Assembly: GCA_024277875.1 (NCBI GenBank)
Contig: JAJRUI010000001.1
Span: forward strand, 1-64,000
Reading direction: 5' to 3'
DNA: 64,000 nucleotides
Origin: Deferrisomatales bacterium
GTDB lineage: Bacteria; Desulfobacterota; Deferrisomatia; Deferrisomatales; Deferrisomataceae
Position 1 is the first letter of the stretch. The number at the start of each line of letters is the position of its first letter. The notes under the pieces were generated by a model. It was not told where the DNA came from. It made no database searches and was given only the letters and a program-made list of their open reading frames with translations. Both the position numbers and the translations under genes were made by a program. Positions 29,035-34,832 of the stretch are shown one piece after another.

Positions 29035-30318
29035 ATGGCCGACGCGACCACCCCGAACCAGCCCGACCCCGGCCCCGCAGGGGTGTTGTCGGACGACGAG
29101 ATCCATGCGCTGTTGGGCCCGGGCCCGGCCCTGGGTGCCGACCCGGTGCTGGTTCTCACCCCCGACCCGGCCGAGGTCGCGTTGCTCGAAGACCGGCTTC
29201 GCGCCGCGAACCGGCCGGTGGTGACGGCCGCGGACCGGTACGAGGCCCTGGACCTGTTCCGGGCCCGGCCGTACGCCGGCGTGGTGGCGGCGGCCGAAGT
29301 GCTGCCCCCGGACCCCGGCTGGTACCTGGACCGGTTCCGGGAAGTGGACCCGGCGGTGCGCATCGCCGTGCTGCACGACCCCGGCGCAGAGCCCCCGGCC
29401 GGCGTTGCCGTGGCCGTGAGCCGGCCCCTGACCCGGGACAAGGCGGACCTGCTGGTCCCGCCGCCGGCCGGTTCGCCCCATCCCCCGCCCGTACCCGAGG
29501 ATCCCGCCGTCCCGCCGTGTCCCGCGTCCCCCGGCCGGCCTCCCGGGCTGGTCCAGGCCCTCCTGGAGGCCCGGGTGCGCGGGGAAGGGGTGGCCGAGGC
29601 GCTGCGCCGCTGGGCGGACACCGCCCCGGAAGTGCTCGGTTGGGCCGAGATGGAGAACGGCGGCGGCGAGTGGCGTGTGCGGGCCCGGGCCGGCGGGCAG
29701 CACCCCCGGCAGCTGGTGCTGCTGCTCCTGCAGGCGCTCGAGGAACACGGCGGGGCGCTCGAAGGGCCGCTGGCCGCCGGCCCGTTCGGGCTGTTTCCCG
29801 AAGACGGCCCGGGCCGGCGGTACCTGGCGGTACGGCTCGCGGACGCGGAGGCGAGCCGTGCCCTGGTGGCCGGAGTCGGGCCGCTCCTGCCCCTGCTCGG
29901 CCGGCTGGCGCCGGCGTCCCCGCGCCTGGGCGAGGCCGACGCCCGGGAGCGGTTCGTCGCCCTGCTGGGGTCCCGGATGCGGGGGGTGCAGCGGCGGCGG
30001 GGACGGCTGGCCGTGCTGGTCGTGGCGGTGCCTGCCGGGGACGAGCCCGGCCGGGTGTGCTCCCTGTTGCGGTCGGTGTTGCGCGGGGCCGACTGGACCG
30101 AGCCGGTGGGCGGCCGGGTGTACACCATCCTGGACGAGCCGGACGAGCGGGTGTTCGCCGCCCTGGGCGCCCGGCTGCGTACCCTGCCCGGGATCGAACG
30201 GTTCCGGGTCGCTGCCCTGGGGTGGTCGCCGGCGGACGGGGGCAAGGCCGCAGATCTCCTCGCCCGGGCCGACCGCATGCTGGCCTCGGGCACGGGGGTC
30301 CCGGGGCTGGCCGGCTGA
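29035..30318 (+). CDS. Signalling protein with FliM-like N-peptide, pseudo-receiver and degenerate GGDEF-like domain
   Basis: A protein of 427 residues. Residues 18-28 read LSDDEIHALLG, close to the LSQDEIDALL peptide by which FliM binds CheY-P. Residues about 36-125 look like a receiver fold but the phosphate-accepting Asp is missing. After a Pro-rich linker and a middle segment, residues ~300-425 have the length and helix pattern of a GGDEF domain (DARERFVALLGSRMRGVQ at the start, ADLLARADRMLASG at the end), but the GGDEF loop reads TEPVGGRVYTIL, so no cyclase activity is expected. Possibly a c-di-GMP or chemotaxis adaptor. It lies next to an uncharacterised operon on the other strand. Confidence 0.65.
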   Translation: MADATTPNQPDPGPAGVLSDDEIHALLGPGPALGADPVLVLTPDPAEVALLEDRLRAANRPVVTAADRYEALDLFRARPYAGVVAAAEVLPPDPGWYLDRFREVDPAVRIAVLHDPGAEPPAGVAVAVSRPLTRDKADLLVPPPAGSPHPPPVPEDPAVPPCPASPGRPPGLVQALLEARVRGEGVAEALRRWADTAPEVLGWAEMENGGGEWRVRARAGGQHPRQLVLLLLQALEEHGGALEGPLAAGPFGLFPEDGPGRRYLAVRLADAEASRALVAGVGPLLPLLGRLAPASPRLGEADARERFVALLGSRMRGVQRRRGRLAVLVVAVPAGDEPGRVCSLLRSVLRGADWTEPVGGRVYTILDEPDERVFAALGARLRTLPGIERFRVAALGWSPADGGKAADLLARADRMLASGTGVPGLAG

Positions 30319-30339: not shown

Positions 30340-31083
30340 TCAGTGGGGCCGGTACGGGCCCACCTGGTACCCGAGACCGTGCTCCCGGAGTACGGTCTCC
30401 CCCAGGTGGCGGGCGGGCAGGTCCAGGGCGTGCAGGGCAACCAGGCAGCCCGCGCGCACCACCGGGAACAACCGGCCCGGGTGGCCGGTGGCCGCCGCTT
30501 CCAGGGCGGCCCGGGCGTGGGGGTCCTGGGCGCCGGGCACCGGTGCCAGGGACAGTTCGTGCACCTCGGCCGGCCGGGCGTCCCGGCCGACCCCCACCGC
30601 TTCCAGGTACGGGGTGGTCGCGTTCAGCACGGCGGTCCAGCCGGGGGGTGGGCGCAGCAGGCCCAGGAGGTCCACGAACCGCTCCTGGACGTGGAGGCTC
30701 GTCTGGCGCGCGGCCGCGTCGAACGGCGCGGTGGGGTCCCCGGGCTGCCAGAACGGCCGCACGAACAGCACCGGCGGCCGCGGCAGCCACAGCGCCTGCA
30801 GGAAGCTCCGGTACGGGGTGGATCCCCACCCCTCGGCGACCCGGGCCGGATGGGCCTGGAGGCCGGCCATCAGGAACTCCCGGGTCCCCGGGTTCCAGTA
30901 CAGCCGCCGCACGGGGTGGCTGCCGGCGTCCTTGGGCTGCCACGCGGGCGGGAACACAGCGTCGGCGTCGTACGCCTCGAACACGTCCCGGGGCACGGCG
31001 AGGAGAACCTCGTCCCCCCGGACGACCCGGTAGTGCCCGCCCTGGAGCGCGATCACCACCGTTTCGGACCGGCGCCCGCTCAC
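30340..31083 (-). CDS. Hypothetical protein, last gene of an envelope operon
   Basis: A soluble-looking protein of 247 residues without signal peptide. I do not recognise the family. It is rich in Trp, Pro and aromatic residues (AVFPPAWQPKDAGSHPVRRLYW, in part) and has no membrane segments. GTG start at 31083 overlaps the stop of the upstream gene (GTGA), so it is made with the membrane protein encoded there. Confidence 0.7.
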   Translation of the reverse strand: MSGRRSETVVIALQGGHYRVVRGDEVLLAVPRDVFEAYDADAVFPPAWQPKDAGSHPVRRLYWNPGTREFLMAGLQAHPARVAEGWGSTPYRSFLQALWLPRPPVLFVRPFWQPGDPTAPFDAAARQTSLHVQERFVDLLGLLRPPPGWTAVLNATTPYLEAVGVGRDARPAEVHELSLAPVPGAQDPHARAALEAAATGHPGRLFPVVRAGCLVALHALDLPARHLGETVLREHGLGYQVGPYRPH

Positions 31084-31718
31084 GGTTCCAACACCACGTC
31101 CTGGAACTGTTTCCACCAGTGCACGAGGAACCAGATCGCCACCAGGCTGCCCACGAACACCCCGGCGGCCGTGAGCCGGGCGCCCCGGGCCAGCCGGGCC
31201 GCCCGCAGGTTCAGGGCGCGGATCTCGTCGTCTGCCCGCCCGGCCAGGGCCGACGCCCGTTGCGCAACGTCCGCGCCCAGGCGGACGGCCGTGGCGCTGT
31301 ACTCCCGCAGCCGCTCCCAGTCGCGGATCCCGGCGGCAGGCCCGGCGAGCAGCCCCAGCACCTTGCGGTAGCGCCGGACGCTGCGGTCGATCTCGTCGAG
31401 TTCGTCCAGCGCCCACCCGGAGCCGGCCAGCTGGCGCATCTGGCGCACGTGCCGGTCCAGCCGGTCCAGGTGCGCCAGCACCCCCGAGGTGTCCGGCGCG
31501 AACTCGGCCAGGTGCCGGAACAGCTCTTTCTGCGCCCGGAGGATCTCGGTCTGGACCGCGTGGGCGTGGCCGGCCACGGGCTGCGCCCGTTCGGTCACCG
31601 CGGTCACCGACTGCGACACCACCCAGCTTCCCCCCAGCAGCAGCCCGTCCACGGCCAGGAGCAGCCCGGCCAGCAGGAAGAACCACCGGCGGATCTGGGT
31701 TCCCACGGGCCTGGTCAC
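31080..31718 (-). CDS. Two-helix membrane protein with periplasmic four-helix-bundle-like domain
   Basis: A protein of 212 residues. A membrane helix near 13-33 and another near 182-200 enclose about 145 mostly helical residues with many Arg, His and Glu. That is the layout of the sensor half of chemoreceptors (4HB_MCP), but there is only a stub of about 10 residues after the second helix, with no HAMP or signalling domain. GTG start overlaps the upstream stop. It might sense or relay a signal for the co-encoded heme-domain protein. Confidence 0.65.
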   Translation of the reverse strand: MTRPVGTQIRRWFFLLAGLLLAVDGLLLGGSWVVSQSVTAVTERAQPVAGHAHAVQTEILRAQKELFRHLAEFAPDTSGVLAHLDRLDRHVRQMRQLAGSGWALDELDEIDRSVRRYRKVLGLLAGPAAGIRDWERLREYSATAVRLGADVAQRASALAGRADDEIRALNLRAARLARGARLTAAGVFVGSLVAIWFLVHWWKQFQDVVLEP

Positions 31719-33835
31719 CGCCGCCCCTTCCCGGCCTCGAGCGCGAGCCGGACGAGCCCGGTCACCGCGTGCCGCGCCTTGTCCGCCCGATCGAACGCCG
31801 CGAACGACACCGCCCGGTCCTGGCCCGGAACCAGGGCCACGTCGTCTTCGTGCCCGGTGTTCAGGGCGCGCGAGAACTCCACGGTCCACGCGCCGCCGGC
31901 CCACCGGCCCACGGCCTGGACGTCGGCGCGGCTGCCCGTGGCCGGCGCGGACCGGTACGCGTCGACCACCGGTTTTCGGAACTCCACCGGGATGAAGAAC
32001 GACCACCCGGAAGTGCCCCGGTCGGGGAGTTCCCGGATCCACACCTGTCCCGAGCCGTCCCGGGCCGGGTACGGGTTGGAGCGGGGCAGGCGGCTGCGGC
32101 TGACCTGGAGGCGCCCGTCCCGGGCGAGCCCCGACAGGCGGGACCACTCGGCCCGCCACAGCCACAGGTCCGCGTCCACCGGGCCGCCGGCCTGCATGCA
32201 CGACCGGCCGGGACCGGCACCGGGGTGGATCGCCACGGCAAACCCGTCGTCCAGGGTCTCGCTCTGCCGGTACGTGCCGGCCCCCTCGTCCCAGACCCAC
32301 GGCCGGTGCCGGACGTCCCGGGTGGGGTCTGCCCACCGGACGGCCAGGAACACCTCCCGGTCCGTGTGCACGGCCCACACCTGCAAGGGGTTCGCATCCC
32401 CGCCCCCCTCCATGGACACGCTCACCGGTTCGGCCCGTTTCCACGCGGGGTCGTCCAGTTGGCCGTCCAGGACGGGCGCGGCCGGCACGGCCGCCGCCGC
32501 GAGCACCGGGCCGTCCACGTCCGCGGCCGCGTGGCTCGGCGGCCGGGTGTCGTCCAGGGCGCCCAGGGCGGCCCGGACCTCTTTCGCCCGGGGGCCGTCC
32601 GGCCACGCCGCGAGGAACGCCTCCAGCGCGTCCCGGGTGCCGGCCCGCCGGGCCGCGGAGAACGCGGCCTCCATCCGGATGCGCCGCAGGCGCTGGATCT
32701 CGGTCCGCGCCTGCCGGGCGTGGCGTCCGCCGGGACGGGTGGCCAGGTACGCCTGGAGCGCCTCCTCGCTGCCCCGAGCCGCCCGGAACGCGTCGTCGTC
32801 CGCCTCGAGCGCGGCCAGCCGTTTCCGGGCCCGGCGGGCCTCGGGGGTGTCCGGGTAGGTGGCCAGGAACACCCGGTACGCGTCTGGCGTGTCCAGGTCC
32901 CGGGCCTTGTCGTACGCGCTGCGGCGCCTTGCGGCCGCCGCCTCGCCGGCCCGGCGTTCGGCCTCGGCCCGCCGACGCCGCTCTTCGGCCGCCCGGAGCC
33001 GGCCCTCGATCTCCACCCGGTGGGCCGAGCCGGGAAACTGCTCCAGGAACGCCCGGTACACCGCGGCGTCGTCTTCGCTCCTGGCCCGCCGGTACGCCCG
33101 GTCTTCCCGCAGCGCCGCGGCCCGCTCCCGGGCCTCGGGCGCCTGTGGCGCGTCCGGGTACCGGTCCAGGAACCGGGCGTACGCCTTCAGGGTGTCGTCC
33201 GCCCGGGCGCGCTCCCACGCTGCCCGGGCCCCGTCCGGCCGGACCGGCGCGGGCAGCCGTCCGTCCGCCGGCGGAGCGGTGGTCCGGCTCTCCACCACAA
33301 CGACCGGTGCGGCCCGGGATCCTTCCGCCGCGCCCGCGCCCACCTCGGCCTCGACCCCGGGGGGCGCGCCGGCGGCGGGAACCGGGGGCCCGGCCGGCCG
33401 GGCCGCGGTGCTGGAGCGCTGGCGTTCCGGGGAACCGGCGCCCGGTCCGGCGCCCGGAAACCGGACCCGGAACACGAACGGGTTCCCGTCGCCCTCCACC
33501 CCGCCGGCCTCGATGTTCGGGTCGGCCCGGCACAGGCGGTCGAAGGTCTCCCCTACCCGGACGCCCATGGACAGCCGGTAGAAGTCGTGTTTGGTGCCGA
33601 TCCAGCGAAAGGTCCCGGTGTCATTGGAGAACACCAGGGTCACCTCGTCCCCGTCGCGTTGGATCCGGAAGTCCGTGGTACCGGGGTTGGCCTCGAGGAC
33701 CGCGTCCCGGATCCGGTCCGCCTTCCGGTTCAGGGAGTCGGACGCGATGTCGTACAGGAGATCGCGGGTGAGGCGGACGGCGGGATCGGCGGCCGCGGCG
33801 CCCCTGGGGGCGGCGACGAGCAGCGCGAGGATCAG
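31715..33835 (-). CDS. Exported repeat protein with C-terminal ethylbenzene-dehydrogenase-type heme-binding domain
   Basis: A protein of about 706 residues. After a hydrophobic signal-like start comes an N-terminal domain, a Pro/Ala-rich linker, five to six helical repeats of about 45 residues (AYARFLDRYPDAPQAPEARE, AYRVFLATYPDTPEARRARK and similar), and a C-terminal domain of about 220 residues with LDGQLDDPAWKRAEPVSV and ADLWLWRAEW, the EB_dh/DOMON-like periplasmic heme b fold. No ATG, GTG or TTG fits before the signal segment; a CTG at 33835 that overlaps the upstream stop (CTGA) is the best candidate. Start is uncertain. It is the largest member of a four-gene coupled operon. Confidence 0.7.
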   Translation of the reverse strand: MILALLVAAPRGAAAADPAVRLTRDLLYDIASDSLNRKADRIRDAVLEANPGTTDFRIQRDGDEVTLVFSNDTGTFRWIGTKHDFYRLSMGVRVGETFDRLCRADPNIEAGGVEGDGNPFVFRVRFPGAGPGAGSPERQRSSTAARPAGPPVPAAGAPPGVEAEVGAGAAEGSRAAPVVVVESRTTAPPADGRLPAPVRPDGARAAWERARADDTLKAYARFLDRYPDAPQAPEARERAAALREDRAYRRARSEDDAAVYRAFLEQFPGSAHRVEIEGRLRAAEERRRRAEAERRAGEAAAARRRSAYDKARDLDTPDAYRVFLATYPDTPEARRARKRLAALEADDDAFRAARGSEEALQAYLATRPGGRHARQARTEIQRLRRIRMEAAFSAARRAGTRDALEAFLAAWPDGPRAKEVRAALGALDDTRPPSHAAADVDGPVLAAAAVPAAPVLDGQLDDPAWKRAEPVSVSMEGGGDANPLQVWAVHTDREVFLAVRWADPTRDVRHRPWVWDEGAGTYRQSETLDDGFAVAIHPGAGPGRSCMQAGGPVDADLWLWRAEWSRLSGLARDGRLQVSRSRLPRSNPYPARDGSGQVWIRELPDRGTSGWSFFIPVEFRKPVVDAYRSAPATGSRADVQAVGRWAGGAWTVEFSRALNTGHEDDVALVPGQDRAVSFAAFDRADKARHAVTGLVRLALEAGKGRR

Positions 33836-34443
33836 GAGCCCGGAGACGAGCCGGACAGGAGGGCGCGGATCTCGGCGGCGACCTGCTGGGCCACCCTGGC
33901 GTCCAGGAACACCCGGACGTACTTCTCGATCCGGCCGACCAGTTCCTCCAGGGCCTCCAACGTGTCTTCGCATCGGTCCACCGCTTGGAGCAGGCGTCGG
34001 GCCTTGCGCCCGAAGCGTTCGTTCAGGAGTTTCTTGATCTCGTCCTTGACCTGGGCCGGGTCCGGCGCACCCTCGTCCAGGTCGAACCAGTCGTCTCCCC
34101 CGTCGGGAATCGGGGGGGCGGCCTCGCCGTCGCGGTTGGCCTCGTCCAGCAACCGCGCCGCCTCCATCACCAGGTTGGTGGAGTCCATGGTGATCGTCCG
34201 CTTCGGGGTCGGCACCCCGGTCTCGAAGCTGAACTCCCCGGACTCGACCCGGAACAGGGCGTACACCGCCTTCTCGCCCGACAGGCCCGGGAACTCGGCG
34301 TGGACCACGTCGCCGGTCTCGAAGTACAGCGCCGACCCGCCCCCGTTGTGCGACACCCGCAGGGCTCCGGTCTTGCGGCCGAAAGCCACCAGCTGGATGA
34401 TGTCGGGAAGGCTGAAGTCCTTCAGATTCCCCCGAAGTTCCAA
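33832..34443 (-). CDS. DUF4388-domain regulator
   Basis: A protein of 203 residues. The N-terminal ~105 residues (GNLKDFSLPDIIQLVAFG, TGALRV, YFETGDVVHAEF, GEFSFETG) form a DUF4388/PATAN-like domain, found in two-component and c-di-GMP related proteins of delta-proteobacteria. The C-terminal half is acidic then helical. TTG start at 34443 follows AAAGGAAGGG. It is the first gene of the operon that runs to 30340 and may set its regulation. Confidence 0.8.
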   Translation of the reverse strand: MELRGNLKDFSLPDIIQLVAFGRKTGALRVSHNGGGSALYFETGDVVHAEFPGLSGEKAVYALFRVESGEFSFETGVPTPKRTITMDSTNLVMEAARLLDEANRDGEAAPPIPDGGDDWFDLDEGAPDPAQVKDEIKKLLNERFGRKARRLLQAVDRCEDTLEALEELVGRIEKYVRVFLDARVAQQVAAEIRALLSGSSPGS

Positions 34444-34535: not shown

Positions 34536-34742
34536 CTAGCCGGGCAGCCGTTCCCGGGCTCGCTCGAGCGCGTCGTTGGCCCGTTGGATGCTTTCGATCG
34601 CGGCGTCCAGTTCCTCGGCCACTGCGTCCAGGCCGTCCCGGCGGGCGCGGTCGGCCCACTTCCGGTAGCCGTCCAGGTGGGCGTCGTTGTGCTCCACCCA
34701 GTGGGGGAGCAGGTGGGCGAGCTTGGCCTCGGTCTCGGACAT
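34536..34742 (-). CDS. Small helical hypothetical protein
   Basis: A protein of 68 residues beginning MSETEAKLAHLLPHWVEHN, a pattern I have seen in small uncharacterised bacterial proteins with a conserved HWxEHN motif and an Ala/Glu helical tail. The ATG at 34742 follows GAGG with good spacing; an in-frame ATG at 34787 is possible. It stands alone, before the operon starting at 34443. Confidence 0.65.
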   Translation of the reverse strand: MSETEAKLAHLLPHWVEHNDAHLDGYRKWADRARRDGLDAVAEELDAAIESIQRANDALERARERLPG

Positions 34743-34832
34743 GGGGACCTCGAGCGGGAGACGGGACAGGAGGGATCGGTCGGCCATTGTCTTCGGCAGC
34801 CGGGGACCCTGTCAAGAAGGATGAAAATGAAG

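Follow-up and report, generated by a model that had tools for sequence, protein, structure and literature searches.

The window (the whole 64,000-nucleotide stretch that was analysed) comes from an assembly of 150 contigs and 2.98 Mb. Its open reading frames include four minus-strand genes, A, B, C and D, spanning positions 30340-34443, and a further small gene, S, with which the unit may begin. The features of the locus are listed in Table 1. A preliminary description, made from the letters of the window, had treated A-D as one unit composed of a DUF4388 protein, an EB_dh protein, a two-helix protein and a soluble protein without a family. All four members were found and the unit was borne out.

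Table 1. Genes, domains and candidate sites at the locus (window coordinates)
Feature	Position	Strand	Description or evidence
S	34536..34787	-	83 aa, no family match; 5' of A, same strand
A	33832..34443	-	DUF4388 (PATAN) domain PF14332 and helical C-terminal domain; alignment, start-codon table
B	31715..33973	-	EB_dh score, AlphaFold model of mature part, start evidence
Proposed B start codon, ATG	33971..33973	-	Inside A; 142-nt A/B overlap, 33832-33973
B N-terminal alpha/beta domain	33458..33787	-	Model residues 1-110, pLDDT about 81-91
B helical-hairpin repeats, TPR-like	32552..33238	-	Model residues 184-412, pLDDT mostly >90
B EB_dh domain	31739..32506	-	Model residues 428-683, loops low-confidence
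Invariant Met, candidate axial heme ligand	32195..32197	-	Invariant in 12/12 B proteins
Invariant His, at or beside the site of the Lys ligand in EbdC-type domains	31769..31771	-	12/12 B proteins
C	31080..31718	-	Hydropathy, alignment, junction, weak 4HB_MCP_1/HBM matches
D	30340..31083	-	247 aa, soluble, no family; GTG start
Degenerate REC/GGDEF-like gene	29035-30318	+	Convergent with the operon

Eleven of the sampled Deferrisomatales genomes have a contig that covers the unit; in every one of them, spanning four families, genes A, B and C are consecutive and in the same order. B and C lie together in 12 of 12 sampled genomes of the order, the additional one being G002, whose contig starts inside B and shows B-C-D. 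The orthologues of B are full-length or near-full-length in all 12 (tblastn). The unit is divergent from engB wherever engB is on the contig, with cmk and rpsA mostly further out, and the flank 3' of the operon varies among genomes; the A-B-C linkage therefore exceeds general synteny. The gene order persists far beyond close strains, a point on which the preliminary description had made its unit depend. The operon is real and not a local arrangement. Relatives of it occur in records named as a Deferrisomatales MAG (C14-16), an unclassified bacterium MAG and Deltaproteobacteria MAGs.

The junctions are tight. B and C (31715-31718), and likewise C and D (31080-31083), overlap by the four nucleotides GTGA, the GTG start of the downstream gene lying on the stop codon of the upstream one. 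The ATGA-type junctions described earlier were not found, as both of these are GTGA and the end of A reads CTGA and lacks a Shine-Dalgarno sequence. According to a study of four-nucleotide overlaps (PMC10666635), termination-reinitiation at such sites couples translation, and they often join the genes for subunits of complexes. S-A-B-C-D is read as a translationally coupled operon. Gene D comes after C in families f1-f3 and is lacking in the five f4 genomes; its orthologues, 51-59% identical, occur solely in f1-f3, where they are highly conserved, and a search of the phylum's other families gave none. D has no family match and no transmembrane helix by hydropathy, in keeping with its earlier description as a soluble protein, and its AlphaFold model is poor (pLDDT 44.7).

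The REC/GGDEF-like gene at the 3' side of the operon, to which the preliminary description had extended a signalling link, has no accepted family match. It is convergent with the operon and was not found beside it in other genomes; a clear relative of its product exists only in G005, at a different place (43% identity). This gene is a lineage-specific neighbour outside the operon system, and the link is not supported.

S lies 5' of A in the window, and tblastn found its orthologues just 5' of A in G001, G003, G005, G007 and G008, and none in G006, G009, G010 and G011; S has no Pfam or NCBIfam match. The product of A matches DUF4388 (PF14332) with 93.5 bits against a gathering cut-off of 25, and all 11 orthologues match this family. 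A second conserved helical domain at the C-terminus (about residues 130-195) is shared with the orthologue of G069 (alignment). The protein has no signal peptide and no output domain. PATAN domains of cyanobacterial response regulators bind the pilus motor PilB directly (PMC10519157); by analogy, A may reasonably be expected to bind proteins, and a PATAN protein is plausible as a cytosolic receiver. The TTG start of A in the window is preceded by a Shine-Dalgarno sequence. This codon (34441-34443) is TTG or GTG in 11 of 11 orthologues and ATG in none, with no in-frame ATG upstream as an alternative, which suggests selection for weak initiation.

The start of B is most likely the ATG at 33973, as judged from the sequence comparison, which places it inside A and gives a protein of 752 aa. 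No ATG, GTG or TTG occurs near the signal region of B in the window. In each of the 11 genomes (orthologues L009-L022), an ATG in the B frame lies 44-49 codons ahead of the A stop. It requires an A-ending codon ahead of a conserved Cys of A: the residue at this position varies (Arg, Gln, Lys), and its codon is always CGA, CAA or AAA, which in the six GC-rich genomes of the 11 account for only 2-17% of the usage for the residue. Among 20,000 synonymous randomisations of A, none produced an alignment column with a B-frame ATG in all 11 genomes (0/20000), and randomisations with one genome per genus likewise gave no such column. The internal ATG for B is under selection in A. The predicted initiation strength of this codon is not unusual. 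From the ATG up to the hydrophobic segment, all 11 genomes have an open frame, for which synonymous randomisation gives a probability of 0.07-0.76 per genome; because many genes (24 of 67) have open -1 frames of at least 45 codons, this openness was not counted as proof. Initiation at 33973 provides B with an Arg-rich N-terminal stretch immediately before the hydrophobic segment, the arrangement that an inside-out signal or anchor should have.

A start of B at the CTG of the CTGA that ends A was also considered. This codon is CTG in 8 of 11 genomes, ATG in G001 and G003 and CTA in G005, mostly lacks a Shine-Dalgarno sequence and was displaced by the internal-ATG test; additional initiation at the A stop, beside the internal ATG, is possible. 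No obvious slippery heptamer for an A-B fusion by -1 frameshift was seen in the junction sequence. Pairwise synonymous differences in the overlap were only slightly lower or equal, which gave no support to a dual-coding constraint on the Arg-rich segment itself. Gene callers that restrict same-strand overlap would probably miss the B start. Automatic annotation therefore probably truncates or misplaces it across this conserved 142-nt overlap, leaving a wrong N-terminus and topology in databases.

From its N-terminus, B consists of the Arg-rich segment, one hydrophobic segment, an alpha/beta domain, a disordered linker (model residues 113-183), helical repeats and the EB_dh domain. The AlphaFold model of the exported part has a mean pLDDT of 70.9. 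The EB_dh domain scores 74.9 bits with Pfam PF09459 (gathering cut-off 33.3) and misses the cut-off of TIGR03477, the gamma subunit of the type II DMSO reductase family (35.1 bits vs 169.85). Its best fold match is NxrC (7b04_C, Z 17.4, rmsd 3.4, 193 aligned), followed by EbdC (2ivf_C, Z 16.8, rmsd 2.8, 170 aligned; VIA-align), with CBM9 carbohydrate-binding modules close behind (Z 15.2 vs 16.8 for EbdC). As modelled, the domain has the NxrC/EbdC fold. Such EB_dh matches fill the fold-search list for B, which says little on the N-terminal domain.

The repeats are weak in sequence (Pfam TPR_6, E 0.52; weak matches to the TPR domains of BamD and YbgF/CpoB) and form helical hairpins in the model. 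These matches would also suit an operon for envelope maintenance or assembly, with B as a BamD/CpoB-like scaffold, C as a membrane tether and the EB_dh domain vestigial and non-binding. This explanation is very improbable: EB_dh is the best-conserved part of B, and in the B proteins of family f25, where the N-terminal domain and EB_dh are conserved, a Lys/Glu/Ala-rich stretch takes the place of the repeats, which hence represent the dispensable part of the protein.

Heme b in EbdC is held by Met and Lys ligands (PMC8840923). By the Met/Lys ligand criterion of type II gamma subunits, B keeps the Met and lacks the Lys. In the joint alignment with gamma-subunit homologues, its invariant Met falls on the M-G motif Met of the type II DMSO-reductase-family gamma subunits, and its invariant His lies opposite the relatives' K-S-F-S / KH region; in a third EB_dh group the Lys position reads K/R-H, with the His alone invariant. 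B is thus predicted to carry heme b with Met/His ligation. Of the exported TPR-like/EB_dh heme protein proposed in the preliminary description, the EB_dh domain stands above the cut-off and the hairpin repeats appear in the model, and heme binding has the rank of a prediction from the alignment. A different role for the domain would follow if the unit were a regulator of the cell surface or motility, in which A targets a motor such as the type IV pilus and EB_dh senses a surface ligand in the manner of CBM9, with no heme. The PilB binding of cyanobacterial PATAN domains (PMC10519157) and the CBM9 Z-score of about 15 agree with this; however, NxrC and EbdC outscore CBM9, Met and His are invariant in 12 of 12 proteins, as ligands should be, and the gene context in f25 is a redox one, which makes such a regulator improbable.

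The product of C (212 aa) comprises a transmembrane helix, a helical periplasmic part, a second transmembrane helix and short conserved cytosolic ends. The two hydrophobic helices are present in 11 of 11 orthologues (hydropathy), and both cytosolic ends carry invariant residues (P4 and W12; W202, F205 and L210; alignment). Weak 4HB_MCP_1/HBM matches were obtained for 3-4 of the 11 members (best E about 0.001); for 4HB_MCP_1 (PF12729), three of the 11 match, with a best E of 0.0013, and the window protein itself has neither this nor any accepted Pfam match. There is no HAMP or MA cytoplasmic signalling domain, as the protein ends soon after the second helix, and the alignment contains no obvious heme or Fe-S motifs. 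The earlier picture of a two-helix protein with a chemoreceptor-like periplasmic bundle and no signalling domain agrees with these results, the likeness of the bundle being weak. In a profile search of 383 other genomes of the phylum, full C homologues occur in two, G032 and G069, both of family f25. The remaining matches are weak, and the one in G016, when examined, was a full-length chemoreceptor-like protein.

The same two genomes keep the A-B pair, in differing contexts: in G032 a 14-heme cytochrome adjoins it and his genes are nearby, and in G069 it lies next to a signal-peptidase gene. In both, C is located at most 26 nt downstream of a gene for a 31-32-heme cytochrome c, which ties C to extracytoplasmic redox proteins; together with the 14-heme cytochrome beside one A-B pair, this makes the context a redox one. 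A-B and C are two sub-units, joined in Deferrisomatales and apart elsewhere, both in redox contexts. The 31-32-heme cytochromes 5' of C are about 1345 aa long (L085 3865-7899; L086 8499-12545), and more distant 29-30-heme cytochromes are found in Deferrisomatales at another locus (L102 6927-9887; L101 5198-8341). Deferrisoma species reduce Fe(III) (PMC6137239).

Such a context can be explained equally well by a pure electron-transfer role. In this main rival of a sensor, B would carry heme b in the periplasm or serve as a scaffold on which multiheme cytochromes dock, C would be its anchor in the inner membrane or an assembly factor, and A would help to place the complex, with no signalling. 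Characterised EB_dh proteins are indeed electron-transfer gamma subunits (PMC8840923), C is linked to the 31-32-heme cytochrome in f25 and has no signalling domain. Nevertheless, the unit encodes no quinone-reacting or catalytic subunit, C has no obvious heme or Fe-S motifs and a PATAN protein would be odd beside a simple carrier; we consider an electron-transfer or cytochrome-docking module rather unlikely.

The cluster probably connects a cytosolic regulator to a heme protein positioned outside the inner membrane. Our preferred reading, held tentatively and at somewhat less than an even chance, is that S-A-B-C-D forms a trans-envelope heme module that serves Deferrisomatales as a signalling relay, either redox-sensing or redox-gated. 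B would either stay attached to the inner membrane on its outer face or be released from there, its EB_dh domain carrying one b-type heme, probably with Met/His axial ligands, and its repeats and alpha/beta domain docking partners. C would span the inner membrane, touch B with its periplasmic helical bundle and relay the state of B to its own cytosolic ends, to which A would bind through its PATAN and helical domains, and in families f1-f3 also D. The heme binding, these physical contacts, the direction of the signal and the output of the module are inferred. The relay reading is favoured by the following: an exported heme domain is combined with a two-helix protein lacking an output domain and with a PATAN adaptor under tight coupling; A-B-C linkage is kept in 11 of 11 genomes despite the changing flank, and the A-B pair in f25; the EB_dh fold ranks above other matches, with invariant Met and His in a redox context; and C weakly resembles sensor bundles. 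Counting against a sensor are the CBM9 Z-score near that of EbdC, the Lys ligand that is not kept, the edge-level 4HB similarity of C, which has no known signalling domain, and the lack of an output domain in A. The preliminary suggestion of a coupled conserved unit stands, and all of the evidence is compatible with its idea of a periplasmic sensor of redox state or of a ligand that would report to the DUF4388 protein. A more specific form, a redox sensor particular to the order in which a Met/His heme-b EB_dh domain signals through the domainless two-helix protein to the PATAN regulator, and in which co-production is obligate owing to the start about 45 codons inside the regulator gene, is unlikely as a whole. 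If the preferred sensor reading is true, a lineage of Fe(III) reducers has a conserved core envelope system in which a PATAN regulator is linked to a heme domain in the periplasm, and with it a concrete candidate for redox sensing outside the cytoplasm in such bacteria.

All recognised domains of the unit are known; for the gene set and its order-wide conservation no report was found, and a literature search on the pairing of DUF4388 with EB_dh returned nothing relevant. A shares its PATAN domain (PF14332) with PatA, PixG and related response regulators, but has no REC domain, ends in a short conserved helical domain instead and is coupled to an exported heme-domain protein. C has the topology of 4HB/HBM chemotaxis proteins (a helical periplasmic part between two transmembrane helices) and a weak similarity to them, but only 212 aa and no HAMP or MA domain. 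B resembles the periplasmic scaffolds BamD and CpoB/YbgF in its helical-hairpin repeats, whereas its matches to them are weak in sequence, the repeats are fused to EB_dh and they are missing in f25. With EbdC and NxrC, the heme-b gamma subunits of the type II DMSO-reductase family, B shares the EB_dh fold, the equivalent conserved Met and the exported location. Unlike them, it scores far below the subfamily cut-off, has His at the Lys-ligand position and is fused to repeats and an extra domain, in an operon without a catalytic alpha or a beta subunit.

Paralogues of B with repeats and EB_dh exist outside the operon in G007 and G004 (L015 7915-10845; L016 5-2092; L017 7601-10078). They have no A or C alongside, and the L016 copy is fused to a substrate-binding-like domain. 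In G008, and in that genome only, a gene resembling those of molybdopterin oxidoreductases, its product bearing a Tat-type signal, lies beyond engB-cmk (L022 3787-6261); an EB_dh protein could have this product as its partner.
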